Source of the DNA: Centroberyx gerrardi | Taxonomy: Eukaryota; Chordata; Actinopteri; Beryciformes; Berycidae | Reading direction: 5' to 3' | Assembly (NCBI RefSeq): GCF_048128805.1 | Contig: NC_136005.1 | Coordinates: forward strand, 15,557,760-15,621,759 | DNA length: 64,000 nucleotides | In this document: piece by piece, positions 10,536 through 59,934 of the stretch | How the letters are laid out: each line of letters opens with the position of its first letter | Position numbering within the stretch: position 1 is the first letter of the stretch | Program-made: the position numbers and the translations under genes | Notes under the pieces: model-generated | The model's input: only the letters and a program-made list of their open reading frames with translations | Databases searched by the model: none | What the model was told of the DNA's origin: nothing

Positions 10536-13500
10536 ATGGTTCACAGGGTGGCAGTGATCGGTGCAGGGCCTTCTGGTCTGACCAGCATCAAGGCCTGTTT
10601 GGATGAAGGTCTGGAACCCACCTGCTTTGAGAGCAGCCATGACATTGGGGGTCTATGGAGATTTAAGGTGAGGGACACAGCTGTTAACTGAATACTGCCT
10701 TTTATCCGAGAAAGCGGGTCTGAAAATTATCTATAGGCTTGTATGTTCAAGCCTAGATGGGAATTGGGAATGAGCGTATTCTGTTTTTCACTGAATTTGT
10801 ATACCATGCAAAAGTGCATTATATCAGTTTAATTCTTTGTGAACGTGGGTGTAAAACGAAAACTTTAAATTTCTGTTAGTATCTATATCATATTCCATTA
10901 ACTTTGTGCATCTTATCCAGTGTCAAGTCTTCTATATTCCAGAACAAGCAGTACTAAGGCTGATGAATATGTAGTGTTTGTGAGGCTCATCAACCTCCAT
11001 GGTACTTGTGTGCAGCGGACCTAAAGTCCAGCACATTAGGTGGGCAATGTCTCCCATTATCTTGGTGATGTCCCATAAAGTAATGGCGCTGGGCACTCTT
11101 CCTAAACCTGCTGTTCGACCTGAGCCCAATAACCCACCCATTACCAATTCCACCCCCTGACACTGTGCACACCCAGGCAATACACATTCATTCAGTTTCA
11201 TTCACATTAGCAAGTCCCCCTGTTCACATAGTACATACATGCAGTACATGCAACAGTGCAGTACTGCTACACTGTCTACCTCTGAGCATTGAGTGTAGCA
11301 CTGTTTGCTGCCAATTACATCTTTTATTGTTTGACTACTTTCAATCCTGATAACAAATGTTGACTCATTGTACTTTTGCCTTTTAATGCAAGATGCTCTT
11401 CATACAAACATTAGTTAAATGCCTCTAATGTAATGAAGAAGGTTAATTACTTTTGACCTGTTAGTTAAAAGACTATAGTGATTCCCTCCAGATTCACAAG
11501 GAGAGGGAAAGTGTTCTAAACCTGTTCTCCTATATCTGCTTAAAGCTTAAACCACATCCTGGGCTCTGCTCCAACAGGTGAACAACGCTATTTAGGTGCA
11601 ACTGGGGCTATTTAAGGTGTGTGCTGTATATGAAGTCAAATTGCTTATGCTCAAATGCGCCCTGTGTGTGATGAACAATTTTGAGTGACAGACTCAATTG
11701 ATCTGTGTCACAATTTTAAGAGTGTAATTACAATGTTTAAGTGTGGATGAATATTCCCACGATTCAAAGGCTATGAATCTGATAGGTCATGGAAATATGA
11801 TCTTTTAACAAAATTAGATGAATAGGCAAGTTACTTATGCTAAATTACAAGCACTAAAAGGGTAGTAGAGGCGTGCACATCCAACTGGCCTTGTGTGGTC
11901 GTTGATGACAGCTCCAGGCTTGCGAACTTGCCGCTCATCCATTCACCCACTGCCTCCTGCTACATTGAGCTAACACTGCTGACAGTAACTTTAAGAAGTG
12001 ACATCACTATGATTTATTTGGAAAACTGTAATTTTAGGCAAAGCAGAAAAGAGCACTGTGGGTCTGTCACTTTATCTGTGTCTCTTTGTCTCTGTCTTTC
12101 CGTAGGAGGAGCCTGAGCCTGGAAGGGCCAACATCTATCACTCTGTGGTCATCAACAGTTCCAAAGAGATGATGTCATTCAGCGACTTCCCCCCTCCAGC
12201 TGAGCTCCCCAACAACATGCACCACTCCGAGGTTCTGCTCTACCTGCGCCTCTACGCTCAGGCCTTCAAACTGCTGCAGCACATACACTTCCAGGTTAGC
12301 GGCCATTAGATTTGTTGTTTCAGGCAATAATCAGTACTTGGTTTATATGTAGCATAAATGAGTAGGCCACCCCATGTTTATAACACAAGGAGATCTGTAG
12401 TCTCTGCTTAATGGAGATTCAGTAATTTATTCAACATGTTCCTAAATTGGGTTTTGTCAGTAATAGTAAGAATTATGATCAAAGCATCAAGGATATGGTG
12501 CAGAAAACAACCATTTTCTAAAATGCATTTCAATACTGACCAAGAACAGTGACCTCTGCTGCCCAAAGGCAATACTTCATCAAAATATACATTAGAACAG
12601 AGATTAAAACTGAAATGGTAATTTTATCATGAGGGAGTCCCATAACGATAATGCAAATTTCTACACATTACATGTATACAAATATCGGTAAAATGTGAAA
12701 GTTCTTAGGCTGAACAAATATGCCCACATTTGATTTTCCACCACTAGAGATAGATAGATATACTACAAAACATATTTTTAATGGGTTCTGTGTCTGTCTG
12801 TTTATGTGTGTTTGTTTTAGACAACCGTGGTCAGTGTGAGGCAGAGCCCAGACTTCTCCTTGACGGGCCAGTGGGAGGTGGAGACAGAGGGGAGAGAGAG
12901 CCAGAGGGAGACTTGTGTTTTTGATGCAGTGATGGTTTGTACCGGACACTTCACCCAGCCTCATCTGCCGCTCAAAGACTTCCCAGGTACCAGGAATATA
13001 GATTTTATTTAATGTGTGGGAGGGACACGCTGTGGCTGCTGCTACACAACTCTAACTGAAGATCTGGACACCAAAAATAGTAATGATTCTGTCTCATGCC
13101 TGACAATAAATTATCCACAGAAATCATCAATATATGCAGTTATATGAGTGTTTTTTTGTTTTGTTTTTGATTCCATTTCAGGTATTGAGAGCTTTGAAGG
13201 CAGGTATTTCCACAGCTGGGAATATCGCAACGCTGAGGGTCTGCAGGGGAAAAGAGTGGTGGTGATTGGGATTGGGAATTCTGGAGGTGATATTGCTGTG
13301 GATATCAGTAGAGTTGCAGAGAAGGTACAGAAATTAATTACTTTTCTGAGCTGTTGTCTTTATTTCAAATCAAAGGACTGCTGCCTTGAATTTCTGCCTT
13401 TAAACAGATTCTGATGCTGAGGGTAAAAAATACTGACAAGCACATGGGTCTTCACCCTTTCTGTGCTGATCTGATCTGCAGGTGTACCTCAGTACCAGGA

Positions 13501-16500
13501 GTGGGGCGTGGGTCGCCAGCCGTGTAGGACAGGGTGGGCTCCCATGTGACCTGGTGGGGACTTCCCGATTGGATATGATGCTACAGAGGCTCCGCCCCTC
13601 ATGGAGTGCCAGGATGGTGGAGAAGAACGTGAACCAAGCATTTGACCACAGACTGTATGGCCTGAAACCAAAACATGGGTAACAAAATCGTATGAAGGAA
13701 GATGTTTTTCCCCCAGACATATCAGTCATGCATCTTTTACTTTGTGCCAATCTTGTGGCTCACTTCCATACTGTCCTCTTTGCAGTTTTTTTGCACAGAT
13801 CCCAGTAGTGAATGACGAGCTGCCAAGTCGGATTATCTCAGGTCGTGTTCAGGTGAAGCCAAACGTGAAGGAGTTTTGTGGTTCCAGTGTGGTCTTTGTT
13901 GATGGGAGCATCATAGACAAGGTGTGTATTAGTACTGTAACCATTCTTAGACATTGGGTCAACAGCTAAATCTGATGAGGAAAATATTATTGCACTGAAG
14001 GTACTGTGATATGACAGCATACATTTATTAGACTAATTGTCCAATGTTTGTGTTCCTGTTATCTTTGAGTTTTATGCTTGTGTGATCCAGGTGGATGTAG
14101 TGGTGTTTGCCACAGGGTACAACTACAGCTTCCCCTTCCTGCCGTCAGCTCTGCAGGCGAAGTGTGGTTACAGGCTGCGTCTCTACCAGCATGTGTTCCC
14201 TCCAGGTCTGTCCCAGCCCACCCTGGCAGTGGTGGGCTTCATCCACGGCCTTGGCGCTATCAACCCTCTGGCTGAGATGCAGGCCCGCTGGGCCACCAGA
14301 GTATTTAAGGGTAAACTACACCACAGAAACTTTCAGTTTTATAGATAAGTATGATGTAGGTTCTTTGAGAACATACTTTGCCTTGATGGTCAAGAGAGAA
14401 AGACCCTAGGCATTTATCAATACACAGGATCTGATGTAGCTATCATTTGTTCTGTTTGGGTGAGTGCCTACATAGAAACTTAGCTTGGATATTAGAGAAA
14501 GAAGGCAGGTGAGCGTGGGAATATCATATTTCATTAAATTAGGCCGATGACACATTGAGAAGAGTACATGACCTGTGAAGGCGTCCCAGAACCACCCTCC
14601 TACACACCTGCTCTCAACACTAATCAGAATAACTTTTTTAGACCTTTTTAATGCCAGTTAAAATAACATTTAAGACCAATTTCATCCCCACATAAGTCTT
14701 AAAGGATAAGGCCGGTGTTTTTTAATGCATTGCTTACCGTCAACAAATCCTATGAAAATAACAAAATCAACAATGCGTTTGCTCTACTCCCATTACTTTC
14801 TGACTTCCCACGTACTGTTTTTAGCCGTCAACCCGGAAGTCATTGGCTCCAATGGTAAGCTAAAAACCTTTAAATACAGCTCACAAAGACATAGTCTCAA
14901 TTTTAAAAATCGCTAACTGTTACCACCAAAAGTCATGCTGTTGTAGTTATTACCAAATCAAATTCAAATGGGAACAAATTCTTCATCACGCCGGGGACTA
15001 TTTTCGGTGCTACGGAACTACTTTCCTGAGATCGCAAAGTGTTTACAGCCGGCTTATTAAGTTGTTTGAGGAAAAAGTCGGCTGGCCCGGTGCATCGTGA
15101 TGATGAAATATGCTGCCCAGAGCAACTGAGCATCATTTTTTTAATACAATGGAGTTCTATGGCTGCTCGGACATGGCTTCATTGGGCACCGGCTACATGG
15201 ACGAGATTTGTTGGCAAAACAAAATCATTGCTGATTTTGTTATTTTCATAACGGAATATGTAGGACTGAGTCAATGTCTAGGTCTAGAAATACAACATAA
15301 AGATCTCTCTTCTGTTGTCTGGCTGATTGAATTTGCTCCCAGATCATGCTCATGTATTCTAAACACCCTAAGGTGCCTGGTATAACAACCTCTGTAGGTA
15401 TGCCTCTGTCTATTTTAATTCACTTGAATTTCCCCCAGGTTTAACGACACTTCCCTCAGAGGAGGCCATGTTACAGGACATTGAGAAAGCCACAGCAACC
15501 ATGCATCAGAGGTAGGCAATGCTTATCATGTTGAATTGTAAGTTGTTCAATTCACATGATCTGTATTAACCTTCGAGATGACTGGAAATAATCCTCTGCA
15601 CTGCACCAAAGTGCAGTTTGCATTATACGCTCCAGCAAATAATGGCCATTACAAAGAGGACCAACACGACCCTGAGCTTTCATTTAATGTCAAGAACTGA
15701 TTTAATGTGTAATTACTTTTGAGGGTTTTCTTGTTGATGTTGCTGTATGTTTCCTATATACTCGTCTGAAAATCCATTGGCTCACTCTTATATTCAAAAG
15801 AGACTCCTTGGTCTGACGCCCTATCTGACTAATTTGTTACAAAACTCTTCCTGTAACAGCTGGTCTGCTCACCACATCCTGCTGAATGTCCCCAGAGTTA
15901 AAGCTTTCCTTGGCCACTCCTCATTCTAGTTTGCTGCTCCCAGTGAGTGGAATGAGTTGCAAAAGTCTCTCTCTGCCTTCTTTACTGTTGTTGCATTACT
16001 GATTTTATTAGTTTTCTGTTGTCTTCTGCAAATGACTAGCCTTCTTATCTTGCCTCCCTTTTGTTATTATTATTTTCTTCTTACCTTTCCTCTAATTCCC
16101 CATCGAGCGTCAAAATGGGGCCTCTTTCTAGGCCGTCATTGTAAACAAGAATTTGTTCTTAATTGACTTGCCTGTTTAAATAAAGTGTGTGTTTGTGCAT
16201 CTTCCCCTAGGTTTGCCTGCTCTGAACGCAACCCCCTCCAGGTGGACTACATTCCTTACCTGGACTCTCTGGCAAAGCGGGTGGGGGTTCAACCCAACAT
16301 CCTGCGGCTCTTACTGACGGACCCCAGGCTCGGACTGCAGGTGTTTCTGGGTCCCTGCACCCCATACCAGTACCGTCTGACTGGGCCGGGCCAATGGGCC
16401 GGAGCCCGTCAGGCCATCCTCACACAATGGGAGCGGGTGGTTCAGCCTTTCAGGACCAGAGTGGTACCAGAACCAGAGACCAAGCCGTCTTCTAGACTGA

Positions 16501-16595
16501 GCCTGATGCTGGCTGTCTCAGGTGTTGTTCTGCTGTGCTGCTCCCTCTACAATCAACACAGCCTCTGCTCTTTCTTCTCTCTTCCCCCACTCTGA
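10536..16595 (+). CDS. Flavin-containing monooxygenase, gene A (FMO5-like), 546 aa
   Basis: Class B flavin monooxygenases use FAD, NADPH and O2 to oxygenate soft nucleophiles at the ER membrane. Nine coding exons with GT-AG borders join in frame: 10536-10667, 12106-12294, 12821-12986, 13182-13324, 13482-13678, 13786-13921, 14091-14310, 15439-15511 and 16211-16595. They give 546 aa, a normal family length. Visible motifs are GAGPSG at residues 9-14 (FAD), [11 protein letters not shown] in exon 4, GIGNSG at about 192-197 (NADPH), FATGY at 327-331 and a hydrophobic tail near the C-terminus. Asn61 and Met66, conserved in the family, are kept. The ATG sits one base after a splice acceptor. Intron 6 lies 12 nt upstream of its position in genes B-F, with total length unchanged. 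It is clearly an FMO; the nearest mammalian type appears to be FMO5 (inferred by eye). Confidence 0.93.
14690..15260. repeat. Probable dispersed repeat in intron 7 of gene A
   Basis: Intron 7 (14311-15438) is much longer than in genes B-F. Its middle starts with AAGGATAAGGCCGGTGTTTT, a phrase I associate with a dispersed teleost repeat, and is richer in CG than the flanks. No transposase-like frame is seen, so the assignment is tentative. Confidence 0.35.
15745..16190 (+). mobile_element. LINE 3' end in intron 8 of gene A
   Basis: The translation contains [15 protein letters not shown] and, after a stop, [14 protein letters not shown], which match the C-terminal end of fish non-LTR retrotransposon proteins. 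A 3' tail with CATTGTAAACAAGAATTTG and TTTAAATAAAG follows. It is a 5'-truncated, decayed LINE copy lying just before the last coding exon. Confidence 0.75.
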
Positions 16596-18201: not shown

Positions 18202-18888
18202 ATTTTGTCTGTTTTTGTAAGACCAGTGGGGTTTTTATCTCACCTGCAGTAATTGCATCTCTTTTGTCTGTGTTTTTTATCACTTTGCTATAATGTTTTA
18301 CCACTGTGCAACTAAACTAAACTAAAGAGAGCATAAACAGTGTGCAAGAGAGTACAATCAGACTTTCAGGCACAAGGTATGGGTTTCTTTCTCTTTTTAT
18401 GTAGAATTTTGCCCATTTATTGAAGGTTTTTTATTTTTTACAAATATCACTGATCAAAGAAACACAAGCAATCTGACTAAGAAGGCATGAAAGTGATTGA
18501 TATGGAAATAATTGGATGCTGTTTTTCACTAAATACAGTGTGTGAGGGTGGGAAACACATGCACCTGAGGTGGTGTTTAAATGTATTTGTGTGTAAGTTT
18601 CACCTGCATTCATGTACATGCACTAACCTTTTTGTGAGCGGCATAAACCTTTACCCTATAGACTCACCATGAAGCCCAAATTACTTCAATGCTCATTTTT
18701 TTTTAATTTTAATAAAGTTTTTTTGTGAATGCTGTACTTTCTTTCTCCCTGGATCTGGATCTTGCCATTTGTTTCACTCAAGTCTGGCAATACCTGCGTG
18801 TTTACAGCCATTGCCATATCTCAGTTGTAATACTTAAATATTGTATTTTCAATTAATTGAAAGTAAGAATAACCATCTCTCCTCCAGC

Positions 18889-20191
18889 ATGGTTCATACG
18901 GTGGCAGTGATCGGTGCAGGGCCTTGGTCTGACCAGCATCAAGGCCTGTTTGGATGAAGGTCTGGAGTCCATCTGCTTTGAGAGCAGCCATGACATTGGG
19001 GGTATGGAGACTGTGATGATGCTGTCACCCAGCCTGCTCAGCTGCATCCTGTGCCCTCCATTTCTGCCGTCTTCTCACTTCTATACCAGCCAGAGAGACT
19101 TAAGGCCATAGGCGGAGTTTGAGTTGTATTCTGGGGGGGGGGGGGCACCAAAAGAAAAACTATTATATCCCTGTCAATTCCCTATGCTGCACCACGCCAC
19201 ACACAATGCCAAAATACATCACTTATAGCCAATAGACCATACACCACAACAAATTACAAAGTAGACAACAACCGACGAACACATCCAAAACCAGGCTTGT
19301 ATAATTCAATACTGTACGACGCAAAGTAATAAAGTAGTGGGAAAATAGATGACTTGCCAGTAGACCAGAGGACATGAAAAGAAAAAGTTCTAACCACACT
19401 GTGCTGGACCATACCTCCAGATTCATTCCAACTGAACACACACACACACACACACTTCAAATAAACAGCCGTCTTACTTAACGCAGTAGTAATGTCTCTG
19501 TTTCCGCCCTGCGTAGATGTCAACAATCTTTTCTGGTGACAGTCCTCTGGTCAAATCCGCCTCGATATGAAGGATAGCCGGTGATATATGGATATCCATT
19601 TTATGAAAATTCCACAGCGTAGCTAGTAGGCTACTTCGATTTCAACAAATCTAACAACAAATCTAACAAAAAAAATACGTGCCCATGTATGCAACATAAA
19701 AAACCCACAAAACACTACAAGTCACGGTAGGCAAAACTGGAATCGATTAATCTTTTCAAAAGTAGAAGTTGGAAGACTCTCAATACTGGAGGAGGGAAAA
19801 TACTGCACACGGTATTCTATCTGTTAACACGGAAACGCGTAGGGATTGGGAATTCATCTCGCACACTTGTACAACTGTCTATGTTTAGCTAGTGACATGG
19901 AGATTTACACTGGTGGTGCATACAATAACACATTGATATGGTTTACTTTGTGCAGAGGTGCAAATTAAGCTTTATTCAAGGGTTGTTGTGGTGATATATT
20001 TCAGCCACTGGGGGGGGGGGGGGGGGGGGGGCCTTAGACAAAGAGTATGAGTCTATCTCACACTTTATCTCTTGCACACTGTCCCTCTCTAGGAGGAGCC
20101 AGTCATAGAGCAGCACCACCCAGAGGTGCTGCTCTACCTGCGTCTCTGCCACACTCAGGCCTTCAAACTGTTGCAGCACTTTAACTTCTAG
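18889..20191 (+). pseudogene. FMO pseudogene P, related to gene A
   Basis: Exon 1 (18889 to about 19010) matches exon 1 of gene A closely, including the CTCTCCT and CAGCATGGTTCA context before and at the start. Two bases are missing inside the codons for GAGPSGL, which shifts the frame and destroys the FAD motif, and the end of the exon with its splice donor is lost. Exon 2 (20093-20191) keeps its acceptor and donor but is 99 nt instead of 189, an in-frame loss of 90 nt, and its last codon is TAG where gene A has CAG. Exons 3-9 are absent before gene B. It is a dead, truncated duplicate of the A lineage. Confidence 0.9.
19011..20092. other. Intron-like interval of pseudogene P
   Basis: It contains a run of 13 G at 19133-19145, a (CA)n run at about 19436-19455 and a run of 22 G at 20010-20031. 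I see no gene. Long homopolymer runs are prone to assembly error. Confidence 0.7.
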
Positions 20192-20625
20192 GTGAGAAGT
20201 CAATAACAGTCTAATCCTGTCTGTGTCACATGAGGCAATATTCTGCGTCTATAACTGGTTCTTATCATTGTCAAATAAAGGTAAAGAAATAAAAGTTGAT
20301 AGTTTGACTGAACCAATCTCCAAATATATTGATTGCATTTTATGGCCCATAGTGGTTGGATTGCCATCATGTTTGAAGTATTGGGGGTATTTCTTTGATC
20401 ATTTATTTAAGGTAAAGATTAACCAAAATGATTCTGATCTCACTGATTACCTTAGATGTGATGTCTCAGTACACCAGTGTTCCCCTTGAGCCTTGTTCTT
20501 CTTCGTTTTTTAAACAATATTTTTATTGGATTTCTTTTTATCAAATTTTACATCACATTAACAACCAATGTACAACAAGGTCACCTTTACTGTGACACTC
20601 CCCCCCCCCGCCCCCCCCCCGCCCC

Positions 20626-22633: not shown

Positions 22634-24946
22634 ATGACCCGGCGTGTGGCAGTGGTTGGAGGGGGCAGTTCAGGTCTGGCCTGTATCAAGAGCTGTCTGG
22701 ATGAGGGGCTGGAGCCTGTCTGCTTCGAGAGCAGTGATGACATCGGCGGCCTGTGGAGGTTTAAGGTGAGTCACACTCTGCAGGCTGCAGGTCCCTTCCC
22801 TTACTGTCTCCTTTCATCTCCATCAACCGCGCCAATATGGGAGACTCAAACGGGTGGTAACATTACATATACCAAGGAGTTACACTCTGAACCAACTGGA
22901 TATTTAATAAATAATGTTGAAGTTAATGTTTTTTCTCCTAATGGCTGTCCTATCCCAGGAGAACCCAGAGGCAGACAGAGCCAGCATCTACCACTCTGTC
23001 ATCATCAACACCTCCAAGGAGATGATGTGTTACAGTGACTTCCCCATCCCCGCACACTTCCCCAACTACATGCACAACTCCCTCATCATGGACTACTTTC
23101 GCATGTATGCCGATGGCTTCCAGCTCACCAAGCACATACGCTTCAATGTAAGAATTAAGTTGAGTTTTTATATCCTTGAAATAATGTATAATTTTCACCT
23201 CAATCTCAGATGTGAAATGTCACTGAGTTCAGTATGACTGAAGGATATGCCAAGCCAAGAACATAGGAAAAGTATGCTATTATGTTCAAACCCACATAAT
23301 TGCACTTAACAGAGTTAGGGATAAGAAACCTGTGCTGGCTTGTGTTCTGTAATCAGCTCTCTTTCTGCCTCTCTGTTTCTCAGACCAAAGTCTTGCAGGT
23401 GAAGCAGAGATCTGATTTCTCTCGTTCAGGCCAGTGGGATGTTGAGACGGAGAACAAGGATGGAAAGAAGGAGCAACACATTTTTGATGCTGTGATGATC
23501 TGTATCGGACACCACTGTCACCCCAACTTGCCTCTCCATGATTTCCCAGGTACCACACTTGTAGTAGAACCTGTTGTAGAACACTATTGAGAGAAATTAT
23601 GTTCTTTAAGAATCAACTTTTCCCACATTATGGCAAGACTACCCCCATTTTCATATCTATGTGGTTGCATAATGTCAAGGTGAGGTAGCCACCACCCAAA
23701 GAGAAAACTGAATGTCAGTATTGTGGTCTCAAAGTTGCCCTATATGTCATCTTAATCTGGTTTAATCTCTATATGGAATCCTTTGATGAAATCATAATAG
23801 ATGGGTTAAACCAGGATCCTGTATTAAACTTAACTCAGGTTAATAAACAAGTCATGGACACTGGAAGATTTTTTATTTTTTAATTTCTGCTTTATAGACA
23901 GTAGACAGTACAGTTGAGAGACAGGGAAGGGGGAAGAGAAGGTTGGATGACGTGACAAAGGTCCAAGGCCAGATTCGAACCCAGCCTCCCCAGGGTTCCA
24001 GTGAATTTCTTAAATGTCACTAATCTAGATTTTCTTTTACAAATCTAAATCACCCACTGCACACTGAACCTGTAATGAAACTGAAAACCTGTCATGAACT
24101 CTCCTGGCAGCAGATGTGTGTATTGGTAACAACTCTGTGTCTATCTTTCAGGCATTGACACATTCAAGGGAAAGTACTTCCACAGTCGGGACTACAAGAC
24201 TCCTGAGGAGTGGAGGAACAAAAAGGTTGTAGTGATTGGAATAGGAAACTCTGGAGGAGACATAGCTGTGGAACTGAGCAGAGTCACCAAGCAGGTTGGT
24301 GTCACATATGGATCCTCAGAGGCACACAAGACTCTAATCTTAACCTTATTCAGGTACTGGCATTATGGCCGACTCCCCATGTCTTCTCTCCCCAGCTTTA
24401 CCTGAGCACTCGGAGGGGAGCCTGGGTTCTGAACCGAGTTGGAGACAACGGCTTGCCCCTGGATATGACCTTCAACAGGATGGCAACTTCTCTGCAGAGC
24501 ATCCTTCCCTTTGGTTTATTCTGCAGCCTGGGAGAGAGCCAACTCAACAAAAGATTCAACCACAGTCTGTACAATCTGAAGCCAAAACACAGGTAGTTTT
24601 ATCAATTTCTGGCCATTTCTCGCTGTATTATTCAAATAGCTGCACGTGATTTCTTTTATTTAAAAATGAATACAAAAATGTATAAAAATAGCATGCATCA
24701 AATTGTAGTATCATTACTTATCAATCTGTTAAAATGAATCTGAATATGAATCTCAGGTTGTTCAGCCAGCATCCCACAATGAATGATGAGCTGCCCAACC
24801 GCATCCTATCTGGAACAGTTCAGGTGAAACCCAACATCCGCAGATTTCAAGGATCCAGCGTGGAGTTTGAGGATGGGAGTGTTGTGGAAGATATCGACTT
24901 AGTGGTAGGTGTAATCGTAACAAGTGTGTACACGCACACCAAACAC

Positions 24947-45867: not shown

Positions 45868-45982
45868 CTGTTCTTGGCCATAGAATCGAAGCAACATCAG
45901 AGCAAGAGGGGACTGGAGAGTCATACTTTAATGTGGATCACATTTCATTCAGTTACACACTACATATAGAGTTCTAAGTTTC

Positions 45983-46428: not shown

Positions 46429-46458
46429 TTAGTGCAAACATTTATAACCTGTTCACTA

Positions 46459-46673
46459 ATAATAATAATTATAACCTTTATTTGTATAGCACTTTTCATA
46501 CACAACATGCAGCTCAAAGTGCTTTACATCAATAAAAGGCAGATAAGAGACAGATAAAAAGATAAAATTCATATAAAAGAACAAGCAAGATGCATTGCAT
46601 TAAAAGAATCAAATCAAGCAAAATAGAAATATAAAAGAACACAACAAATACTCCCACTTTTAGATACACATTA
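46459..46673 (-). mobile_element. 215-bp insertion with a SINE/LINE-like tail, copy 2
   Basis: It is the same insertion at the same place as before gene D, now before gene E. Shared presence before D and E and absence before F orders the duplications. Confidence 0.75.
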
Positions 46674-47433
46674 GCCTATAGCCTACATACTGACACCGTG
46701 ACACTGGTTCCTTATTCTTGGTTTAAGGGAGTGAAGTGTCAGATTGGCTGTATCTAAATGTGTGTACTGCAGACTCGCGGACTGAACCCTTGCAGACTAT
46801 GGTTTTAGATCAGCATGAATCCGTGAGTTTGCAAGGGTGCAGGGTTGTGACTCTGCATAAAAAGCTGCTAATGGGGCCTTACATCTTATCATCATATCCG
46901 TAGTGCAATGACCAGTAGGAAATCTCACTAGTAAATTCTGTAAGATAGCAGAAGTCCACATAGAGTCCCCCAAAAGTCTGCGTGAGAGCCTTACAGAGTT
47001 GATTAATTTTGGTAAGGGACAGCCCGAACCCCTCTTGGACTTCACAGGAACGTGCCACAAAGTCAGCAAGTCCAGGGAAGTCTGGACTTTTGGATTCAGC
47101 AACTGACTGACTGACCTGACTTTGCCGTCCCTATAGCCCACAGCGCAGCCATGCTGCTACGCATCATGAGAAAATGGGTTCACACCACAACCTCCAGGTA
47201 GGTCTGAAAATGTCTGTCAAAATGCGACCACATCTTGCTACATATTAACTTATATGTGTTGTGTTCTACCAGTTCATGCAAGGACAAAGGTCAATGGAGT
47301 AAACATGAACATAGCCAAGTCACTGCTGTAATCAAAGTACAGTCCATAAAAGGAGAAAGCAGATCTTAGTGATGACTACTTAGTTGACCTATTGCTCCAC
47401 GCATGCCTTTGTTATTAGAGAAGACATTTTCAG
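46674..47433 (+). promoter_or_regulatory. Upstream region and candidate first exon of gene E
   Basis: This is a copy of the region before D. The candidate first-exon donor lies after 47197, the leader ATG is at 47151 and the likely acceptor ends at 47433. Confidence 0.5.
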
Positions 47434-47472
47434 ACTGAGCCGGACCGTCCTGTGCAGGGCTAAAGCTAAAGC

Positions 47473-50400
47473 ATGACCCAGCGTGTGGCAGTGGTTGGAG
47501 GGGGCAGTTCAGGTCTGGCCTGTATCAAGAGCTGTCTGGATGAGGGTCTGGAGCCTGTCTGCTTCGAGAGCAGTGATGACATCGGCGGCCTGTGGAGGTT
47601 TAAGGTGAAAGTGCCCATAGTTGTAGAAATTGATTGTTCTTCTTGTCTCACCCAAGGAGTTATACTATGAACCAACTGTTTGCACTGCATATTTAATAAT
47701 GATGATTATGATAACATGAAATTCATATTTTTTCTCCTCCAGGCAGGGGTGGAGCTTGCCTTTCATGCATATGGATGCAAGCTATATTTGAGATCTGTCT
47801 TCCCAACAATGTTATAGGTGTAAAAGGGCAAAAATAATAACCTATCAGCATACTGAAATTACAGTTACATTCACAACTATTATGCTACAGAAAATGCAGC
47901 ACTGATTCCCAGTGGCCTGTCAAAACAGCATGAGCGTTTTGCCAAAATTTAACATATTTTTCTATATTTCATCTTTGCAAAACTGTCAATGACTGTGTTT
48001 ATAAAGGTTGTAAGAGTGAATTGGCAACAGAAAATAGTTGTTGATTGTTCAGAATATGCTTACTATGCATTATATTATGAATTATGTTTATGCACCTATT
48101 CAAATTCCACTTATGGTCCTATCCCAGGAGAACCCAGAGCCAGACAGAGCCAGCATCTACCACTCTGTCATCATCAATTCCTCCAAGGAGAGGATGTGTT
48201 ACAGTGACTTCCCCGTCCCCGCACACTTCCCCAACTTCATGCACAACTCCCTCATCATGGACTACTTTCGAATGTATGCCGATCGCTTCCAGCTCACCAA
48301 GCACATACGCTTCAATGTGAGGATCCTTCACTAACTTCCTGTCTACAATTAAGAGTTTTTATATCCTTGAAATGGATGCTATTATATTCAAACCCATGTA
48401 ATTAACAGACTTAGGGTTAAGAAACCTGTGCTCTCTTTCTGCCTCTCTGTTTCTCAGACCAAAGTCTTGCAGGTGAAGCAGAAATCTGATTTCTCTCGTT
48501 CAGGCCAGTGGGATGTTGAGACGGAGAACAGAGATGGAAAGAAGGAGCAACACATTTTTGATGCTGTGATGATCTGTATCGGACACCACTGTCACCCCAA
48601 CTTGCCTCTCCATGATTTCCCAGGTACCACTCAAAAAAAACCTCAACTCCTTCGAGGACAGATAGTGCTGTAGAGCACTATGGAGAGAAATTATATTCTT
48701 TAAGAATGAACTTTCCTCACAGTGTGTAGGAGCATGTTATGGCAAGACTATATACTACAATTATCAAGTCAATGTGGTTGCCTAATGTCAACAGAAATCA
48801 GGTAGCCTCCACCCAAAGAGAATACTTAATTGTGATTGTCAGTATTGTGTCCTTAACCAACCTTTCCCTATATGTAATTTTATTTTACACTTTGATTTGG
48901 CTTAAGTTCCCTATATGAAATACTGTTATGAAATCATAACAGATGGGTTAAACCAGGATCCTCTATAAAACTACCCAGGCTAATAAACAAGTCATGGGCA
49001 GTGGAGGAAATATTTTTCTTTTGTTTTGGAATGGTTTGAGTGTGCGGCCAGCTGCATTGTCTTTTTCAGATATAGATCAAAGTCACTGTCTTACAGATGT
49101 AGACTGTCTAACCATTTCTATCTGTTTCAAATGAAAATGTTGATTCAACAACTGGTGGGGGAAAGGGAGTGAGGGCGAAAAAACAACTGAGGTTCCTCAT
49201 GGACCGGGGTGTCTGTTAAGCGGGGTCACACACTGACTGCTGCCTGTGGAAACACACACAGGAGAGGGGGTGAGACAGTGCACCACCTTCCTCTCCAAGT
49301 TCTGCAGGAGGACTGAGTTGCTTTTATGCAGGCAGGAAGCTGATTGGTAATCTGCACTGTCTGTGGTCCTGCATTGCCTTTGTGGAGCACCCCAGCCTCC
49401 CCAGGGCTTCACAAAGTGCATTTCTTAAAAGTAGTTAACCCAAATGTTTTAATCAAATCACTGCAATCATAAACCTGTAATAAAACTGAAAACCTGTCAT
49501 GAACTCTCCTGGCAGCAGATGCGTGTATTGGTAACAACTCTGTGTCTATCTTTCAGGCATTGACACGTTCAAGGGAAAGTACTTCCACAGTCGGGACTAC
49601 AAGACTCCTGAGGAGTGGAGGAACAAAAAGGTTGTAGTGATTGGAATAGGAAACTCTGGAGGAGACATAGCTGTGGACCTGAGCAGAGTCACCAAGCAGG
49701 TTGGTGTCACATATGGATCCTCAGAGGCACACAAGACTCTAATCTTAACCTTATTCAGGTACTGGCATTATGGCCGACTCCCCATGTCTTCTCTCCCCAG
49801 CTTTACCTGAGCACTCGGAGGGGAGCCTGGGTTCTGAACCGAGTTGGAGACAACGGCTTGCCCAGGGATATGACCACTAACAGGATGGTAACTTCTCTGC
49901 AGAGCATCCTTCCCTTTGGTTTATTCTGCACCCTGGGAGAGAGCCGGCTCAACAAAAAATTCAACCACAGTCTGTACAATCTGAAGCCAAAACACAGGTA
50001 GTTTTATCTATTTCTGTGCAATTGTATTTACAGCTACAGTAAAGCTGTATAATTCAAAGAAGTAGCTGCATGCCATTTATTTTATTAATTAAACATACCT
50101 GTGGTATGCATCAAGTTGAGTATCATTACTTATCAATCTGTTAAAATGAATCTGAATATGAATCTCAGGTTGTTCAGCCAGCATCCCACAGTGAATGATG
50201 AGCTGCCCAACCGCATCCTATCTGGAACAGTTCAGGTGAAACCCAACATCCGCAGATTTCAAGGATCCAGCGTGGAGTTTGAGGATGGGAGTGTTGTGGA
50301 AGATATCGACTTAGTGGTAGGTGTAATCGTAACAAGTGTGTACACACACACCAAACACACAGGCACACCAAACACACACACACACACACGCACACACACA

Positions 50401-51409
50401 CACACACACACACACTTCCTTACACACACTTTCATTGGACAGCAGTGCCATGCAGTAGCATGTTAATGAGATGACTCCCTCTCTTGCAGGTATTTGCCAC
50501 AGGTTACAGCTTTTCCTTTCCATTCCTTGCCTCACATGTGCTGTCAGTCTCTGGGAACAAAGCATCTCTGTACAAGTATGTTTTCCCCCCTGAGTTGGAC
50601 CGCCCCACGCTGGCTATCATTGGACTAGTGCAGCCACTGGGAGGCACTATTCCAATCTCTGAGATGCAGGCCAGATGGGCCACACGTGTCTTTAAAGGTG
50701 ACACATGTTCTTTAAAATGTGAACTTTTTCACATCACTTTACCCCCACAGAAATACTTGAGGTTGAAGTAGGGCATTTACTCAATTTTCAACTCTGTTCT
50801 CATTACATACAGGCTGTAACAAGCTTCCTTCAATGGCTGCCATGCTGAAGGATGTTCAGTGCAAGCGGGAGAGCATGGCTGCAAGGTACTGCAGTGGATT
50901 TATTCAATTCAATGATTGTTTATTTAGGATCTAAAAGATCAAAAGGACCAAGTCCTGTTGTCCACAACATGTTTGGCTCTGGTCTCTTTTTCAGGTATGT
51001 TACCAGCCAGAGACACACCATCCAGGTTGACTTTATCAAGTACATGGATGAGATAGCAGAGCAGGTGGGGGTTCGACCCAGCATCCTGAGGCTGCTACTG
51101 ACGGATCCCAGGCTGGGACTGAGTGTGTTCCTGGGTCCCCCTACACCGTACCAGTATCGTCTTAGAGGGCCAGGAAAGTGGGCTGGGGCCCGTCAGGCCA
51201 TCCTCACTCAATGGGAGAGAGTGGCCCAACCCATGAAGACCAGACCGTCTGATCAGCCCGAGCCCAAGCGCTCCTTTATGTTGCCTCTGATTCTGTCGGC
51301 CGCTGCCCTGGGCCTGGCTGCCTATTTCAGCAGGAGCAGCCTGCCAGCCTTCCTACAAGAGCCCAGTGCACTGCTGGACTGGATGAAGGGCTACCTGCCT
51401 GCACAGTGA
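47473..51409 (+). CDS. fmo5-like: Flavin-containing monooxygenase, gene E (FMO5-like), 556 aa
   Basis: Nine exons: 47473-47604, 48128-48316, 48458-48623, 49557-49699, 49801-49997, 50169-50316, 50490-50697, 50813-50885 and 50995-51409. All junctions are in frame and motifs are intact. It differs from D at a few residues only: Lys116 for Arg, Asp203 for Glu, Phe264 for Val. Asp203 lies just after the [16 protein letters not shown] loop. Intron 3 is about 180 bp shorter than in C and D owing to one deletion after GGTGAGAC at about 49275. It shares Arg66, the Gly-Thr-Ile triplet at 377-379 and Pro468 with C and D. Confidence 0.95.
50344..50415. repeat. (CA)n microsatellite, intron 6 of gene E
   Basis: The CA run with CACCAAACACA interruptions is like those of C and D but has a different internal length. 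Confidence 0.95.
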
Positions 51410-52642
51410 CCTGCAATTAAAGCACATCAGCTCAGATTATGACTGTATCATATATGGCTGACTTGCTTGCAGGCTCTTTTAATAATTAACATACTAATCA
51501 TTAGTATACAGTTTCTTCAACATTATTACTTCAATATTTTTCTACATTATCCCCATCTCCATGAATGATTCATAAACCAAGATACAATGATGCCACCTAG
51601 TGGAGGCTGCAGAGTGCAGCTGATGCACTGCTTGAAAAAGCTCTCTTTCCTTCCTCCTCGCCCATTCTGCAGATGCCCCCAATAAATATTGTAAGTTGCT
51701 TTGGACAACAGCTTCTGCTTAATAACATAATGTAAATGTAATTTAAACTGCATGATTGAAGTATGTAAATACTAAGATGGTGGTGGAGGAGCAATACCTA
51801 TGCTAAAACAAAGTAGTTTCAAACAGAGTATGAAATATGGCCAAAATAATGTGCTTGGTTGCTTTTCTTCCTTTTTTGTGATTTTCTATTCTCACTCTAT
51901 TTAGTTGGCTAAGTAATGTTTGTTAATCTATTGACAGTGCTTACTGTGCTATACACAGCATTGATATGACTGTGTTTTTGAGGCTGTGCTTGAGGATGAG
52001 TGTATAGATCTACTGTTCCAGTGAAATCATACCAGAAAGCAAGGTTTCCAGTTATCAATAAATTCAATATGGAATGTAATAATGAACAGGCATAGAAAGT
52101 GTAATGTTGTTACTGATGAAACTGAATTACAGTTACCCAGGTTTAAGCTCTATACACGCACATCCGTGCACACAGGCTTACAATTAACTAGCCAACCTTG
52201 CATGATATATTTTTTTTCTCTCTTGATAGATCACAATCTGCTGCACAAGACAGTTGTCAACAGTTGTAGTAAGCTTGGAATAGTTTTCAGACTATAACAA
52301 CTTTTTGACTGCCTTTCAATAAAAAGTCTTTTCCAGTGTTGTATTATTGTGTAATATTACCTGGTTAGAAACCTTTCACCACCACTTCTACCTTTTACCC
52401 AGGTCATTGCTTTGGTATGAAAGGGGCTACAGTTTTATTCCAAGCATAAAGTCAGCATAAGCTTTGTTATGTGATGACTGCTGTAAGCAAGGAAATTTGT
52501 GTATCCGGTCAGCTGCGAGTGTGTAATTGTGTGATGTGTAAGTTATAGGGCCACACATTTCTTGTTTAGGGCCACCAAAACCCTGGGGCCGGCCCTGAGT
52601 CCATTGCTGACAAAATGCATCACTTGCTTCGTCAAACTGCGG
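51410..52642. repeat. 3' flank of gene E
   Basis: It is homologous to the flanks of C and D but lacks about 150 bp around 51857 (the GGGGCACAT part). It contains the SINE/LINE-tail segment and, near 52206, the uninterrupted TATA site corresponding to the insertion after B. Confidence 0.8.
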
Positions 52643-53118
52643 TTAAAGGAATAGTTCACCCAAAAATGAAAATCCTGTCATCATCTACTCATCCTCATGC
52701 CAAATGAAACACAGGTGAAATTTGTTAGTCCATATAACACACAGGGAGGTTGCCAGCACAACTTCGTAGCAGCCTTCTCCAAAACAACTGAAGTCAATGG
52801 GGACCTGTTCTTTAGAGTTCCAAAACAAAAACAGCCAAACAATCACACTGTGAATAGAAAGACCTATACACCATGATTTGTTGCAAATCAATCAACTGTA
52901 GTTAAGATTTGCACTAAATTATGGTGTAAATACAGGTCTTTTTGGAACTCTGAAGAACTGGTCCCCACTGACTTCAGTTGTTTTGGAGAAGGCTGCTATG
53001 GAGTTGTGCTGGCAACCTCCCTGTGTGTTATATGGGCAAACTTCACCTGTGTTTCAACTGGCATGAGGGTGAGTAGATGATGACAGAATTTTCATTTTTG
53101 GGTGAACTATTCCTTTAA
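52643..53118. mobile_element. TTAA-flanked MITE, copy after gene E
   Basis: It has the same 476-bp structure and ends as the copies after C and D. Confidence 0.85.
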
Positions 53119-53233
53119 CTGTTCTTGGCCATAGAATCGAAGCAACATCAGAGCAAGAGGGGACTGGAGAGTCATACTTTAATGTGGATCACATTTCATT
53201 CAGTTACACACTACATATAGAGTTCTAAGTTTC

Positions 53234-53679
53234 CTTATGTTGCACTGAACCAGTTATAAGAATCTGAAATTCGAAGGAAGCAGGATATCGGACATCCTTG
53301 TCTCACTTGTTTTTTGATTGAGAATCCACCAGAAGTGCTGGAATGTAGCATTACAGAGCTGTTGGTGTCTTCATAAAACATTACCCGTAGGAAATTATGA
53401 CCAAAGCCAAAGCGTTCAAGAATCTGAAATAGAAAGCTGTGTTCTATAGTGTCACATGCGTTATAAAAGTCCAGACAGAGAATCAGTGCTTCAGACTTTA
53501 TGAAATGTGCATAATCCAGATCTAATATGTGCCTAATATCACAGCTAATGTGTCTTTTTGACATGAATCCTGTCTGAGTTTAATTTATAATTTGGTTCAA
53601 ATTACTATTTAACCTGTCGGCACAGAGTAAATGGAGGGGTTTATAGTCAATGTTTAAGAGGTACTGTTAATGTTTAAAG
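53234..53679 (-). mobile_element. L1-type LINE reverse-transcriptase fragment, copy 3
   Basis: This is the third copy of the same relic, with unchanged translation. The 215-bp insertion that follows it before D and E is absent here (junction at 53709). Confidence 0.75.
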
Positions 53680-53709
53680 TTAGTGCAAACATTTATAACC
53701 TGTTCACTA

Positions 53710-54473
53710 GCCTATTGCCTACATACTGACACCGTGACACTGGTTCCTTATTCTTGGTTTAAGGGAGTGAAGTGTCAGATTGGCTGTATCTAAATGTGTG
53801 TACTGCAGACTCGCGGACTGAACCCTTGCAGACTATGGTTTTAGATCAGCATGAATCCGTGAGTTTGCAAGGGTGCAGGGTTGTGACTCTGCATAAAAAG
53901 CTGCTAATGGGGCCTTACATCTTATCATCATATCTGTAGTGCAATGACCAGTAGGAAATCTCACTAGTAAATTCTGTAAGATAGCAGAAGTCCACATAGA
54001 GTCCCCCAAAAGTCTGCGTGAGAGCCTTACAGAGTTGATTAATTTTGGTAAGGGACAGCCCGAACCCCTCTTGGACTTCACAGGAACGTGCCACAAAGTC
54101 AGCAAGTCCAGGGAAGTCTGGACTTTTGGATTCAGCAACTGACTGACTGACCTGACTTTGCCGTCCCTATAGCCCACAGCGCAGCCATGCTGCTACGCAT
54201 CATGAGAAAATGGGTTCACACCACAACCTCCAGGTAGGTCTGAAAATGTCTGTCAAAATGCAACCACATCTTGCTACATATTAACTTATATGTGTTGTGT
54301 TCTACCAGTTCATGCAAGGACAAAGATCAATGGAGTAAACATGAACATAGCCAAGTCACTGCTGTAATCAAAATACAGTCCATAAAAGGAGAAAGCAGAT
54401 CTTAGTGATGACTAACTTCTTAGTTGACCTACTGCTCCACGGATGCCTTTGTTATTAGAGAAGACATTTTCAG
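53710..54473 (+). promoter_or_regulatory. Upstream region and candidate first exon of gene F
   Basis: It is homologous to the regions before D and E, with the candidate first-exon donor after 54233, leader ATG at 54187 and acceptor ending at 54473. It lacks the 215-bp insertion and has a few base differences, so it split off before D and E did. Confidence 0.5.
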
Positions 54474-54512: not shown

Positions 54513-57500
54513 ATGACCCAGCGTGTGGCAGTGGTTGGAGGGGGCAGTTCAGGTCTGGCCTGTATCAAGAGCTGTCTGGATGAGGGGCTGGAGCCTGTCT
54601 GCTTCGAGAGCAGTGATGACATCGGCGGCCTGTGGAGGTTTAAGGTGAGTCACACTCTGCAGGCTGCAGGTCCCTTCCCTGACTGTCTCCTTTCATCTCC
54701 ATCAACCGCGCCAATATGAGAGGCTCAAACGAACGGGAACACTCGGGGCACTTTTAGCTCTCCAAATTGTTCAATATTGAAACTCTTTGAAAAGTAATTT
54801 GGACTTGCAGAGTCTTTCGTACAATTGTTGAGACACTAATTTGCATTTAGGTTAAAAAATGTTAATCAGGAAAATCTTTTTTCAGCTTTTCATCCCAAAC
54901 CCTTAGAAAATTGCATACGATATTTGAATTTATTTTTGATTCAACTTAAAACAAAACAAAACAAAAAAAAAACGTATAGTATCAGAAGTATCAGAAACTG
55001 GACAATCGTAAATTGGCAAATTGTGCAGCCATTCACAGTGAACAGTCAGCAAGGAAAAGAGAGTAATCTGGCTTTACTTTGTGCACTTTATTGTGTAATT
55101 TCCAAATTGTCCAATTAAAAGAATTGAATTTGCACTTGGTCCTCTCATCCTTTTATAATTGCATGGGAAAGATCACATCTAACAATGTTTTCTTTTCTAA
55201 AAAGTAACTTTTACTCTGAGTACATTTTAAATGAGCTACTTTTTACTTTTACTTAAGTAGATTTTTACAACAGTATTTTTACGTCTACTTAAGTAAAATA
55301 TCAGCAAAGTAACAATACTTCTACTTGAGTAGATCATTCTAGTACTCTTTCCACCACTGCTGTTATGGTAATGAATTCTTGTGTTGGTAAGGACAGGATG
55401 TTACATGACAAATCATCAGGGTTAGAGATTAAGTAGACCTATAGCTGCTTAAATAGCCTACTGTCCGGAGTACATTTTTAAGTTATGTTTGCTTTATTTG
55501 AGTTCTCTTTTTATAGGACTTTATACTTTTGCTTGCGGAAGAGGATTAGGGCCACATGTGAAAAATGCATTAGTTCTGAGATTAATCTCAGAATTCTGAC
55601 TTTAAAGTCAGAATTCTGACTTTACTCTCAGAATCTCAGAATCTCAGAAAAGACTTTAAAGTCAGAATTATGGAAGTCTTTGACTTTAAGCTCTAAGTTT
55701 TGACTTTATTCTCAAAATTCTTGTTGGGTATTATTGGGAATTTAAAACATTGTATTTATAAACGATTTGTTCATTGTTGCAGTAAGGACCCAAAAATGTG
55801 GGACAGACATATTTCTAAGAAAAATCAACACAAATGATTAATCCACATAAATTTTGCAGTATGTTTTATTTTTATATTTCTAGAATGTAATTTCAGCTGA
55901 AAGTATGATATTGTGTCATTTAATCAGTTTATTATATGCATCTAAACATTGCAGACACAAAGTAAAAATTTGTCATTTAGACCCATAAAATGCATCAAAA
56001 ATTATATAAAACCACATAATTTAGCAGTGGATTTTTTGTAAAGGTGAATTTGATATTTTTTTTTTATTTTTTATTTTTTTTATTGCTGGGACTTGAAAGT
56101 GGCCATTCTACTCTGAACCAACTGTTTAATAATGATGATTATGATAACATGAAATTAATATTTTTTCTCCTCCAGGCAGGGGTGGAGCTTGCCTTTCATG
56201 CATATGGATGCAAGCTATATTTGAGATCTGTCTTCCCAACCATGTTATAGGTGTAAAAGGGCAAAAATAATAACCTAGAGCGACTTGGCAACAGAAAATA
56301 GTTGTTGATTGTTCAGAATATGCTTACTATGCATTATACTATGAATTATGTTTATTTTTATGGGTGCAAGGCACCTACAGCACCTATTCAAATTCCACTT
56401 ATGGTCCTATCCCAGGAGAACCCAGAGGCAGACAGAGCCAGCATCTACCACTCTGTCATCATCAACACCTCCAAGGAGAGGATGTGTTACAGTGACTTCC
56501 CCATCCCCGCACACTTCCCCAACTACATGCACAACTCCCTCATCATGGATTACTTTCGAATGTATGCCGATTGCTTCCAGCTCACCAAGCACATACGCTT
56601 CAATGTGAGGATCCTTCACTAACTTCCGTCCTACAATTAAGAGTTTTTATATCCTTGAAATAATGTTTAATTTTCACCTCAGTCTCAGATATGAAATGTC
56701 ACTGAGTTCGGTATAACTGAAGGATATGCCAAGCCAGGAACATAGGAAAAGTATGCTATTATGTTCAAACCCACATAATTGCACTTAACAGAGTTAGGGA
56801 TAAGAAACCTGTGCTGGCTTGTGTTCTGTAATCAGCTCTCTTTCTGCCTCTCTGTTTCTCAGACCAAAGTCTTGCAGGTGAAGCAGAGATCTGATTTCTC
56901 TCGTTCAGGCCAGTGGGATGTTGAGACGGAGAACAGAGATGGAAAGAAGGAGCAACACATTTTTGATGCTGTGATGATCTGTATCGGACACCACTGTCAC
57001 CCCAACTTGCCTCTCCATGATTTCCCAGGTACCACTCAAAAAAAAACTCAACTCCTTCAAGGGCAGATAGTGCTGTAGAGCACTATGGAGAGAAATTATA
57101 TTCTTTAAGAATGAACTTTCCTCACAGTGTGTAGGAGCATGTTATGGCAAGACTATATACTATAATTATCAAGTCAATGTGGTTGCATAATGCCAACAGA
57201 AATCAGGTAGCCTCCACCCAAAGAGAATACTTAATTGTGATTGTCAGTATCGTGTCCTTAACCAACCTTTTCATATATGTAATTTTATTAAACACTTTGA
57301 TTTGGCTCTCAGTTCCCTATATGAAATACTGTTATGAAATCATAACAGATGGGTTAAACCAGGATCCTCTATAAAACTACCCAGGCTAATAAACAAGTCA
57401 TGGACACTGGAGGAAATATTTTTCTTTTGTTTTGGAATGGTTTGAGTGTGCGGCCAGCTGCATTGTCTTTTTCAGATATAGATCAAAGTCACTGTCTTAC

Positions 57501-58920
57501 AGATATAGACTGTCTAACCATTTCTATCTGTTTCAAATGAAAAAGTTGTGGTAACTCTGGCAACGAGAGGATGTGAGGTTGGGGGTAAAAGGACAGGAGG
57601 GGGGGTGAGACAGGTAAGACAGAGCAAACAGTCCATCCGTCCACTATCCAAGTCTCCTATCCTAATCGCACTCATAACTCAGTCCTCATATCTCAACATC
57701 CTGATGTTGTCCACTTGTGCAAAACAGTTTTCAGTGAAAAAGTCAAGCCACAGAACTCCTCAAAGATACAGTTTGCTGGGCTGTTGGCTGCTTATCACAC
57801 CGGGGATTCAGTGCACCACCTTCCTCTCCAAGTTCTGCAGGAGGACTGAGTTGCTTTTATGCAGGCAGGAGCTGATTGGTAATCTGCACTGTCTGTGGTC
57901 CTGCATTGCCTTTGTGGAGCACCCCAGCCTCCCCAGGGCTTCACAAGTGCATTTCTTAAAAGCAGTTAACCCAAATGTTTTAATCAAATCACTGCAATCA
58001 TAAACCTGTAATAAAACTGAAAACCTGTCATGAACTCTCCTGGCAGCAGATGCGTGTATTGGTAACAACTCTGTGTCTATCTTTCAGGCATTGACACATT
58101 CAAGGGAAAGTACTTCCACAGTCGGGACTACAAGACTCCTGAGGAGTGGAGGAACAAAAAGGTTGTAGTGATTGGAATAGGAAACTCTGGAGGAGACATA
58201 GCTGTGGAACTGAGCAGAGTCACCAAGCAGGTTGGTGTCACATATGGATCCTCAGAGGCACACAAGACTCTAATCTTAACCTTATTCAGGTACTGGCATT
58301 ATGGCCGACTCCCCATGTCTTCTCTCCCCAGCTTTACCTGAGCACTCGGAGGGGAGCCTGGGTTCTGAACCGAGTTGGAGACAACGGCTTGCCCCTGGAT
58401 ATGACCTTCAACAGGATGGCAACTTCTCTGCAGAGCATCCTTCCCTTTGGTTTATTCTGCACCCTGGGAGAGAGCCGGCTCAACAAAAGATTCAACCACA
58501 GTCTGTACAATCTGAAGCCAAAACACAGGTAGTTTTATCTATTTCTGTGCAATTGTATTTACAGCTACAGCAAAGCTGTATAATTCAAAGAAGTAGCTGC
58601 ATGTGATTTCTTTTATTAATTAAAAATACCTGTGGTATGCATCAAGTTGAGTATCATTACTTATCAATCTGTTAAAATGAATCTGAATATGAATCTCAGG
58701 TTGTTCAGCCAGCATCCCACAGTGAATGATGAGCTGCCCAACCGCATCCTATCTGGAACAGTTCAGGTGAAACCCAACATCCGCAGATTTCAAGGATCCA
58801 GCGTGGAGTTTGAGGATGGGAGTGTTGTGGAAGATATCGACTTAGTGGTAGGTGTAATCGTAACAAGTGTGTACACACACACCAAACACACACGCACACA
58901 CACACACACACATACACACA

Positions 58921-58973
<53 letters not shown>

Positions 58974-59934
58974 CCTTACACACACTTTCATTGGACAGCA
59001 GTGCCATGCAGTAGCATGTTAATGAGATGACTCCCTCTCTTGCAGGTATTTGCCACAGGTTACAGCTTTTCCTTTCCATTCCTTGCCTCACATGTGCTGT
59101 CAGTCTCTGGGAACAAAGCATCTCTGTACAAGTATGTTTTCCCCCCTGAGTTGGACCGCCCCACGCTGGCTATCATTGGGCTAGTGCAGCCACTGGGAGC
59201 CATTATGCCAATCTCTGAGATGCAGGCCAGATGGGCCACACGTGTCTTTAAAGGTGACACGTGCTTTAAAATTGGAACTTTTTCACATTATCCTTCACAG
59301 AAATACTTGAGGTTGAAGTAGGGCATTTACTCAATTGTCAACTCTGTTCTCATTACATACAGGCTGTAACAAGCTTCCTTCAATGGCTGCCATGCTGAAG
59401 GATGTTCAGTGCAAGCGGGAGAGCATGGCTGTAAGGTACTGCAGTGGATTTATTCAATTCAATGATTGCTTATTTAGGATCTAAAAGATACCAATGTTTG
59501 GCTCTGGTCTCTTTTTCAGGTATGTTACCAGCCAGAGACACACCATCCAGGTTGACTTTATCAAGTACATGGATGAGATAGCAGAGCAGGTGGGGGTTCG
59601 ACCCAGCATCCTGAGGCTGCTACTGACGGATCCCAGGCTGGGACTGAGTGTGATCCTGGGTCCCCCTACACCATACCAGTATCGTCTTAGAGGGCCAGGA
59701 AAGTGGGCTGGGGCCCGTCAGGCCATCCTCACTCAATGGGAGAGAGTGGCCCAACCCATGAAGACCAGACCGTCTGATCAGCCCGAGCCCAAGCGCTCCT
59801 TTATGTTGCCTCTGATTCTGTCGGCCGCTGCCCTGGGCCTGGCTGCCTATTTCAGCAGGAGCAGCCTGCCAGCCTTCCTACAAGAGCCCAGTGCACTGCT
59901 GGACTGGATGAAGGGCTACCTGCCTGCACAGTGA
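54513..59934 (+). CDS. fmo5-like: Flavin-containing monooxygenase, gene F (FMO5-like), 556 aa
   Basis: Nine exons: 54513-54644, 56416-56604, 56863-57028, 58088-58230, 58332-58528, 58700-58847, 59046-59253, 59363-59435 and 59520-59934. All lengths match B and the frame is open. FMO motifs and the tail anchor are intact. Residues are a mosaic. It is B-like at 49 (Ala), 62 (Thr), 74 (Ile), 81 (Tyr), 232 (Leu), 236 (Phe), 240 (Ala), 377-379 (Ala-Ile-Met) and 464 (Ile). It is C-E-like at 3 (Gln), 66 (Arg), 254 (Thr), 259 (Arg), the VDFIKY part of exon 9 and 468 (Pro). Private changes are Cys97 and Val418. Intron 1 is the longest of the set (1771 bp), starts like that of B and ends like those of C-E. 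Confidence 0.96.
54725..56090. repeat. Repeat-rich middle of intron 1, gene F
   Basis: About 55195-55365 contains the CTTTTTACTTTTACTTAAGT type of sequence, a very common teleost dispersed repeat, ending with a TCTTTCCACCACTG-type motif. About 55565-55715 is a self-complementary simple repeat built on TCAGAATTCTGACTTTAAAG. The remainder is AT-rich without recognisable features. Confidence 0.6.
58872..58971. repeat. (CA)n microsatellite, intron 6 of gene F
   Basis: This is the longest CA run of the five genes, with a few CATA interruptions. Confidence 0.95.

Follow-up and report, generated by a model that had tools for sequence, protein, structure and literature searches.

Expanded fmo genes, some of them in tandem, have already been published for fish. 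In the hadal snailfish, five copies of fmo3, four of them in tandem, have been described and tied to TMAO (PMC8118300), while a study using an updated snailfish genome and FDR correction reports that the fmo3 copies carry no significant amino-acid change and are expressed alike in deep and shallow species (PMC10746142). The loach Misgurnus anguillicaudatus has an expanded fmo5 set, one member of which is highly expressed in liver and gut, and knockout harms the liver and intestine (PMC9893644). In the spotted parrotfish, fmo5 is one of eight significantly expanded families of xenobiotic metabolism (PMC10932694). More broadly, the burst of FMO paralogues has been tied to the emergence of tetrapods, with bony fishes as an external group (PMC9950137). 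These statements follow the available parts of the papers concerned.

The locus that we describe here lies in a window of 64,000 bases, the whole stretch of DNA that was analysed, which contains no N. It resembles the snailfish case in that there are several FMO genes in a fish, four of five in tandem in that species; it differs in that the snailfish genes are named fmo3, and the available parts of the two papers mention no near-identical mosaic units, the two loci being compared by description only. The likeness to the loach, also by description only, is that of multiplied FMO genes labelled fmo5, and the likeness to the parrotfish is that of expansion, the available part of that report giving no arrangement for fmo5. 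Among 12 reports on FMO and gene conversion, none concerns fish FMO arrays, to judge by titles and the opening lines of abstracts. Thus the array is ordinary in kind, while its recombination signature is neat. Our conclusion, in which we have reasonable confidence, is that this is a vertebrate class-I flavin-containing monooxygenase (FMO) array of FMO5-like character, which expanded through successive rounds of unequal crossing-over and in which gene conversion has probably homogenised some patches.

The first-pass annotation had proposed six intact FMO genes and one broken copy lying head to tail on the + strand, and exon models, built from reading frames and splice sites and carried over from one copy to the next, bear this out. 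The limits it gave are exact, position 10536 being the A of the gene A ATG and 59934 the final base of the gene F stop codon. The genes are as follows.

10536..16595, + strand: gene A, nine coding exons, 546 residues, singleton lineage with I60, H275 and N426 (exon model, Pfam, residues)
18878..20196, + strand: remnant P of the A lineage (tblastn, blastn, local alignment)
22634..25992, + strand: gene B, nine coding exons, 556 residues (exon model)
32317..36432, + strand: gene C, nine coding exons, 556 residues; upstream DNA differs from that of D, E and F
39895..44010, + strand: gene D, nine coding exons, 556 residues, N101T relative to C; its unit has an E-like head and a C-like body
47473..51409, + strand: gene E, nine coding exons, 556 residues, four residues from C and three from D
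54513..59934, + strand: gene F, nine coding exons, 556 residues (exon model, Pfam)

In each of the six genes all eight introns are bounded by GT-AG and there are no internal stops. Acceptor-like sequence ahead of the ATG suggests that there may also be an intron in the 5' untranslated region. The division into two lineages likewise held: proteins A and B are identical at 314 of 543 aligned residues (57.8%; dN 0.34, dS about 1.6), while B, C, D and E each differ from F at only 15 or 16 of 556 residues. The broken copy P is real, but smaller than a gene, consisting of an exon-1 fragment (about 18889-19010; 92% identity to A across 137 bases, and two deletions of 2 bases each) and part of exon 2 (about 20113-20191; the last 76 of that exon's 189 bases, 83% identical to A); neither blastn nor tblastn found further exons of P. 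Coding exons 6 and 7 are separated by an intron (13921/14091 in A, 24904/25091 in B) that sits 12 bases earlier in A, giving exon lengths of 136 and 220 in A and 148 and 208 in B, with a sum of 356 in both. We take these 356 bases to be a single exon in mammals, which would make this intron an extra one. Scans of the window with Rfam and ARAGORN returned no match, and no flanking host gene was found among the eight non-FMO open reading frames put to Pfam, a minority of those in the window.

The proteins are members of the FMO family. Pfam, run on A and F among the six, assigned both to the FMO-like family PF00743 at 728 bits (residues 3-526) and 772.8 bits (residues 3-523) respectively, against a cut-off of 22. 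The complete motif set that had been claimed is present in all six proteins: the FAD motif GxGxxG at residue 9, FxGxxxHxxxY at 167, the NADP motif GIGNSG at 192, FATGY at 327 and the conserved N61. A hydrophobic C-terminal stretch was found in A, B and F, the three proteins inspected. The proteins should act as FAD- and NADPH-dependent membrane oxygenases, and their role is likely to be the oxidation of xenobiotics and small metabolites.

As to the type of FMO, the best PDB match of both A and F is the mammalian AncFMO5 (6SEK), to which F scores 722 bits and A 663.5; AncFMO2, AncFMO1 and AncFMO3-6 follow. AncFMO3-6 ranks last of these four ancestral FMOs, scoring 590 bits with F and, with A, 578.1 bits, near the 579.1 of AncFMO1. 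Identity to AncFMO5 over the typed stretch is 61.0% for B and F, 59.8% for C and 56.5% for A. In our tree, A, AncFMO5, B-F and the group of AncFMO1, AncFMO2 and AncFMO3-6 form an open fork, with a very long outgroup branch (3.02). By FMO5-like we therefore mean resemblance and not orthology, and orthology names for the lineages were dropped for the same reason.

The residues at three positions bear on the chemistry. I60, H275 and H426 occur together in all five B-F proteins, as in AncFMO5, which is nonetheless a reconstruction of a mammalian paralogue, whereas all of them are missing from AncFMO1, AncFMO2 and AncFMO3-6; A shares I60 and H275 but carries N426, and so lacks the full set. In the available part of one study, these three residues together brought Baeyer-Villiger oxidation back to an ancestor from which it had disappeared (PMC9950137). 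If this rule, which comes from tetrapod ancestors, may be carried over, then B-F would permit Baeyer-Villiger oxidation besides S/N oxidation, and the product of gene A is more likely an S/N oxygenase. Given that both lineages score highest against AncFMO5, and that B-F hold the Baeyer-Villiger set, nothing in the sequence backs TMAO or osmolyte production in particular. Amine oxidation may still take place, since the reported ancestor performed both kinds of reaction (PMC9950137, available part). The residue pattern speaks against taking amplified FMOs of this type for TMAO enzymes.

A feature that the first-pass annotation did not mention is that C, D and E belong to near-identical repeated blocks of 7.0-7.6 kb, which by self-BLAST extend beyond the similarity of the genes alone, and that D is a mosaic.

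32242..39819, + strand: repeat unit C, 7578 bases, comprising gene C with its 3' tail as well as the DNA that precedes D (self-BLAST, ungapped comparison)
39820..47397, + strand: repeat unit D, 7578 bases, with 10 differences from unit C (ungapped comparison)
47398..54442, + strand: repeat unit E, 7045 bases (self-BLAST, three-way alignment)
33142..33240 in C, + strand: candidate exchange interval, end of exon 2 to intron 2, where D switches from E-like to C-like

None of the 10 differences between units C and D falls within 33142-37525, a stretch of 4384 bases that takes in the CA-rich microsatellite of intron 6, and N101T is the one residue at which the two proteins differ. Between units E and C there are 62 single-base differences across 7026 gap-free columns, together with nine gap runs, of which the longest are 215, 185 and 152 bases and one lies at the extreme end of the unit. 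Aligning the three units gives 63 variable sites, these 62 and one base private to D. In the first 900 bases of the unit, D agrees with E at all seven sites that separate C from E. From base 1000 onwards, where the private base also falls, D agrees with C at 53 of 55 sites and with E at two, and it groups with C at all nine gap runs, every one of which lies in the unit body. This contrast between head and body gives a Fisher p of 7e-8, a figure that is descriptive given that the split point was chosen from the same data and that some sites, adjoining one another or gaps, may not be independent. At the two E-like body sites (37526 and 37612), D and E agree and C stands apart. To be reconciled with a clean single exchange, these sites require either that C itself has changed or that a small conversion came later.

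Unequal crossing-over, or in part an assembly error, appears to have produced C, D and E. A single unequal exchange between C and E within 33142-33240 would yield the order C, D, E, with D made of an E head and a C body, and we propose that such an exchange, very recent and placed between the end of exon 2 and intron 2, created D. The same order would also result if the assembler circled the C/E repeat twice; in that case, or if two haplotypes were joined, D, and perhaps more of the array, would not be a separate copy. The exact identity of C and D over 4384 bases, microsatellite included, fits this second account, as does the make-up of D, since an E head on a C body is also what a loop walked twice would produce. 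The window moreover holds another near-identical tandem duplication, at 4725-10241, with a period of 2333 bases, about 2.4 copies and 99.9% identity over 3187 aligned bases; it may be real, or may share one assembly cause with unit D. However, a loop walked twice predicts that D has no base of its own, yet D has its private base and C departs from D and E together at the two body sites, although allelic differences or consensus errors could account for these. The differences between E and C, in turn, mean that the two do not represent a single sequence counted a second time, although they may be alleles, and the window is free of N. On balance we regard an assembly artefact as unlikely, albeit an account to be taken seriously. 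If the copies are real, D is a recent product of unequal crossing-over in which the exchange can be narrowed down to about 100 bases; should D stem from the assembly instead, it counsels caution in taking FMO copy numbers from assemblies.

Within both full copies of the 4725-10241 duplication there are also tandem repeats of 33 and 48 bases.

The DNA ahead of the genes shows a further discontinuity, centred on a short block at the start of unit C.

32242..32448, + strand: shared block of about 207 bases, made up of 75 before the ATG and coding exon 1; 97-100% identical among B-F, its left end being the unit boundary

The DNA before D and before E matches that before F at 98.5% over 733 aligned columns, while the DNA before C has no such match to the upstream DNA of F. 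The block common to C and F starts roughly 75 bases before the ATG and stops at the end of coding exon 1. These observations fit an older exchange between the exon-1 blocks of the two genes, which would have given the E-type unit its F-type upstream DNA. On the other side of gene B, four pieces of the 3' flank match the 3' flank of C in order but are split by long inserts, the last ending at 32233; as it stops just ahead of the C block, what precedes C appears to be a B tail that has been cut short. Provided that the copies are real, C and D place nearly the same protein behind different upstream DNA, so that dosage and regulation would be separable in one animal. The DNA breaking up the match between the B and C flanks contains a fragment of a YqaJ-like recombinase domain (27805-28173, - strand; 29.9 bits, cut-off 22).

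Identity between the copies is also patchy within the genes. For eight pairs, we took the longest aligned run without a difference, skipping gap columns, and compared it with 2000 shuffles for each pair. No shuffle reached the longest run for B-F (408 bases), B-C (313), C-F (313), E-F (286), B-E (272) or C-D (3736), and only nine of 2000 did so for D-E (999), while the 428-base run of C-E was not unusual (919 of 2000 shuffles); it is important to note that this test pools exons and introns, and that exon conservation inflates its result. The B-F, B-C and C-F runs all take in exon 4 and intron 4 and reach into exon 5, the longest of them being the following.

24118..24525, + strand: probable conversion tract between B and F, 408 aligned bases with no differences, running from the end of intron 3 through exon 4 and intron 4 into exon 5

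In intron 4, the pairs B-F, B-C, C-F and C-E show no difference over 101 bases. Intron 3 diverges by 15% in B-F and B-C and by 4% in C-F, and as the remaining B-F introns diverge by 2-7%, intron 4 is only a modest outlier. We consider it likely that the patchy identity arose by interlocus conversion.

We now turn to the forces acting on the proteins. In the seven pairwise comparisons between B, F and the C-E group, dN/dS is 0.57-0.73, compared with about 0.21 for A versus B; C-E gives 0.39 (7 changes) and D-E 0.29 (6 changes), while the only change between C and D is a replacement. Assigning changes to branches by letter agreement places 15 replacement and 6 silent changes on the B branch, and 14 and 5 on that leading to C-D-E. 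Replacements therefore make up 29 of the 40 changes on these two branches, which exceeds the expectation from the A-B ratio (p 8e-5) and does not differ from neutrality (p 0.45), the pool omitting F (1 replacement, 1 silent), C+D (1, 1), E (2, 1), C (1, 0) and a further two sites that could be assigned to no single branch. In this proportion, relaxed constraint is indistinguishable from purifying and positive selection acting together. We do not claim positive selection, as both long branches have dN/dS below 1 and the pooled proportion is that expected under neutrality. We read the extra copies either as recent ones subject to relaxed constraint or as copies that diverge where the substrate enters.

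These values bear on the suggestion, made in the first-pass annotation, that the local amplification could reflect dosage or substrate selection. The amplification itself stands, while dosage is not favoured. Under that account the array is kept by selection for more of one enzyme, serving the TMAO osmolyte or detoxification. It retains some probability, since the C, D and E proteins are only one to four residues apart; all six reading frames are intact, and expansions of fmo in fish have been linked to TMAO in the hadal snailfish (PMC8118300) and to detoxification in the loach (PMC9893644), in the available parts of those reports. However, enzymes multiplied for quantity are poorly matched by dN/dS of 0.57-0.73 between B, F and the C-E group, by the clustering of C-D-E replacements described below, or by a gene C without the upstream DNA common to D, E and F. 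For TMAO in particular, the later snailfish paper weakens the fmo3 link (PMC10746142, available part), and the label belongs to FMO3, yet AncFMO3-6 is the last of the four ancestral FMOs. We therefore think dosage quite unlikely as the force maintaining the array.

The replacements on the C-D-E branch are not evenly spread. Seven of its 12 replaced codons fall within residues 213-295 or 372-382, which make up 17% of the protein (binomial p 0.0014), compared with three of 13 on the B branch (p 0.38); these limits are our own, chosen after the sites had been seen, and the p values are uncorrected. The basis for the region is the 80-residue insert and the gatekeeper loop (PMC9950137, PMC10682829, available parts). 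Among the C-D-E replacements are L232R and F236T in the insert, which contributes to the substrate tunnel, and the run A377G-I378T-M379I beside the gatekeeper L375, while B and F carry the AncFMO5 letters at 236 and 377-379. One possible interpretation is that the C-D-E lineage was remodelled for other substrates, such that the enzyme that was tripled is a changed one and not the old one. The clustering, its position near L375 and its contrast with the B branch speak for this reading. On the other hand, the region was chosen post hoc, the clustered changes might derive from conversion by a paralogue outside this sequence, the silent changes on both long branches exceed those needed for dN/dS above 1, and the C-D-E letters at 378 and 379 are those of AncFMO3-6, and so are tolerated elsewhere in the family. 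We are accordingly doubtful of remodelling. More speculative, and in our view improbable, is an FMO re-gated by L232R, F236T and A377G-I378T-M379I, through altered substrate entry, and then tripled, in place of the older B/F type, by unequal crossing-over, with C and D, one residue apart behind different upstream DNA, as a natural promoter-swap pair.

Gene A was considered and rejected as a conversion source for the clustered C-D-E replacements, since it has C232, G236, A377, I378 and N379, none of which match.

The tails of the repeat units contain sequence of other kinds. The same open frame of 114 residues occurs in the tails of C, D and E (38406-38750, 45984-46328 and 53235-53579, - strand), and the copy at 53235-53579 matches the reverse transcriptase family RVT_1 at 33.6 bits against a cut-off of 29.6. 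A stretch of about 480 bases in each unit (37813-38290, 45391-45868 and 52642-53119) matches the reverse complement of the other units at 78-81%, and because the unit copies are near-identical, each such stretch is probably an imperfect palindrome. Elsewhere in the window, below-cut-off matches to retroelements occur at 3911-4255 (RT_RNaseH_2, 18.5 bits) and 29855-30313 (RVT_1, 18.9 bits).
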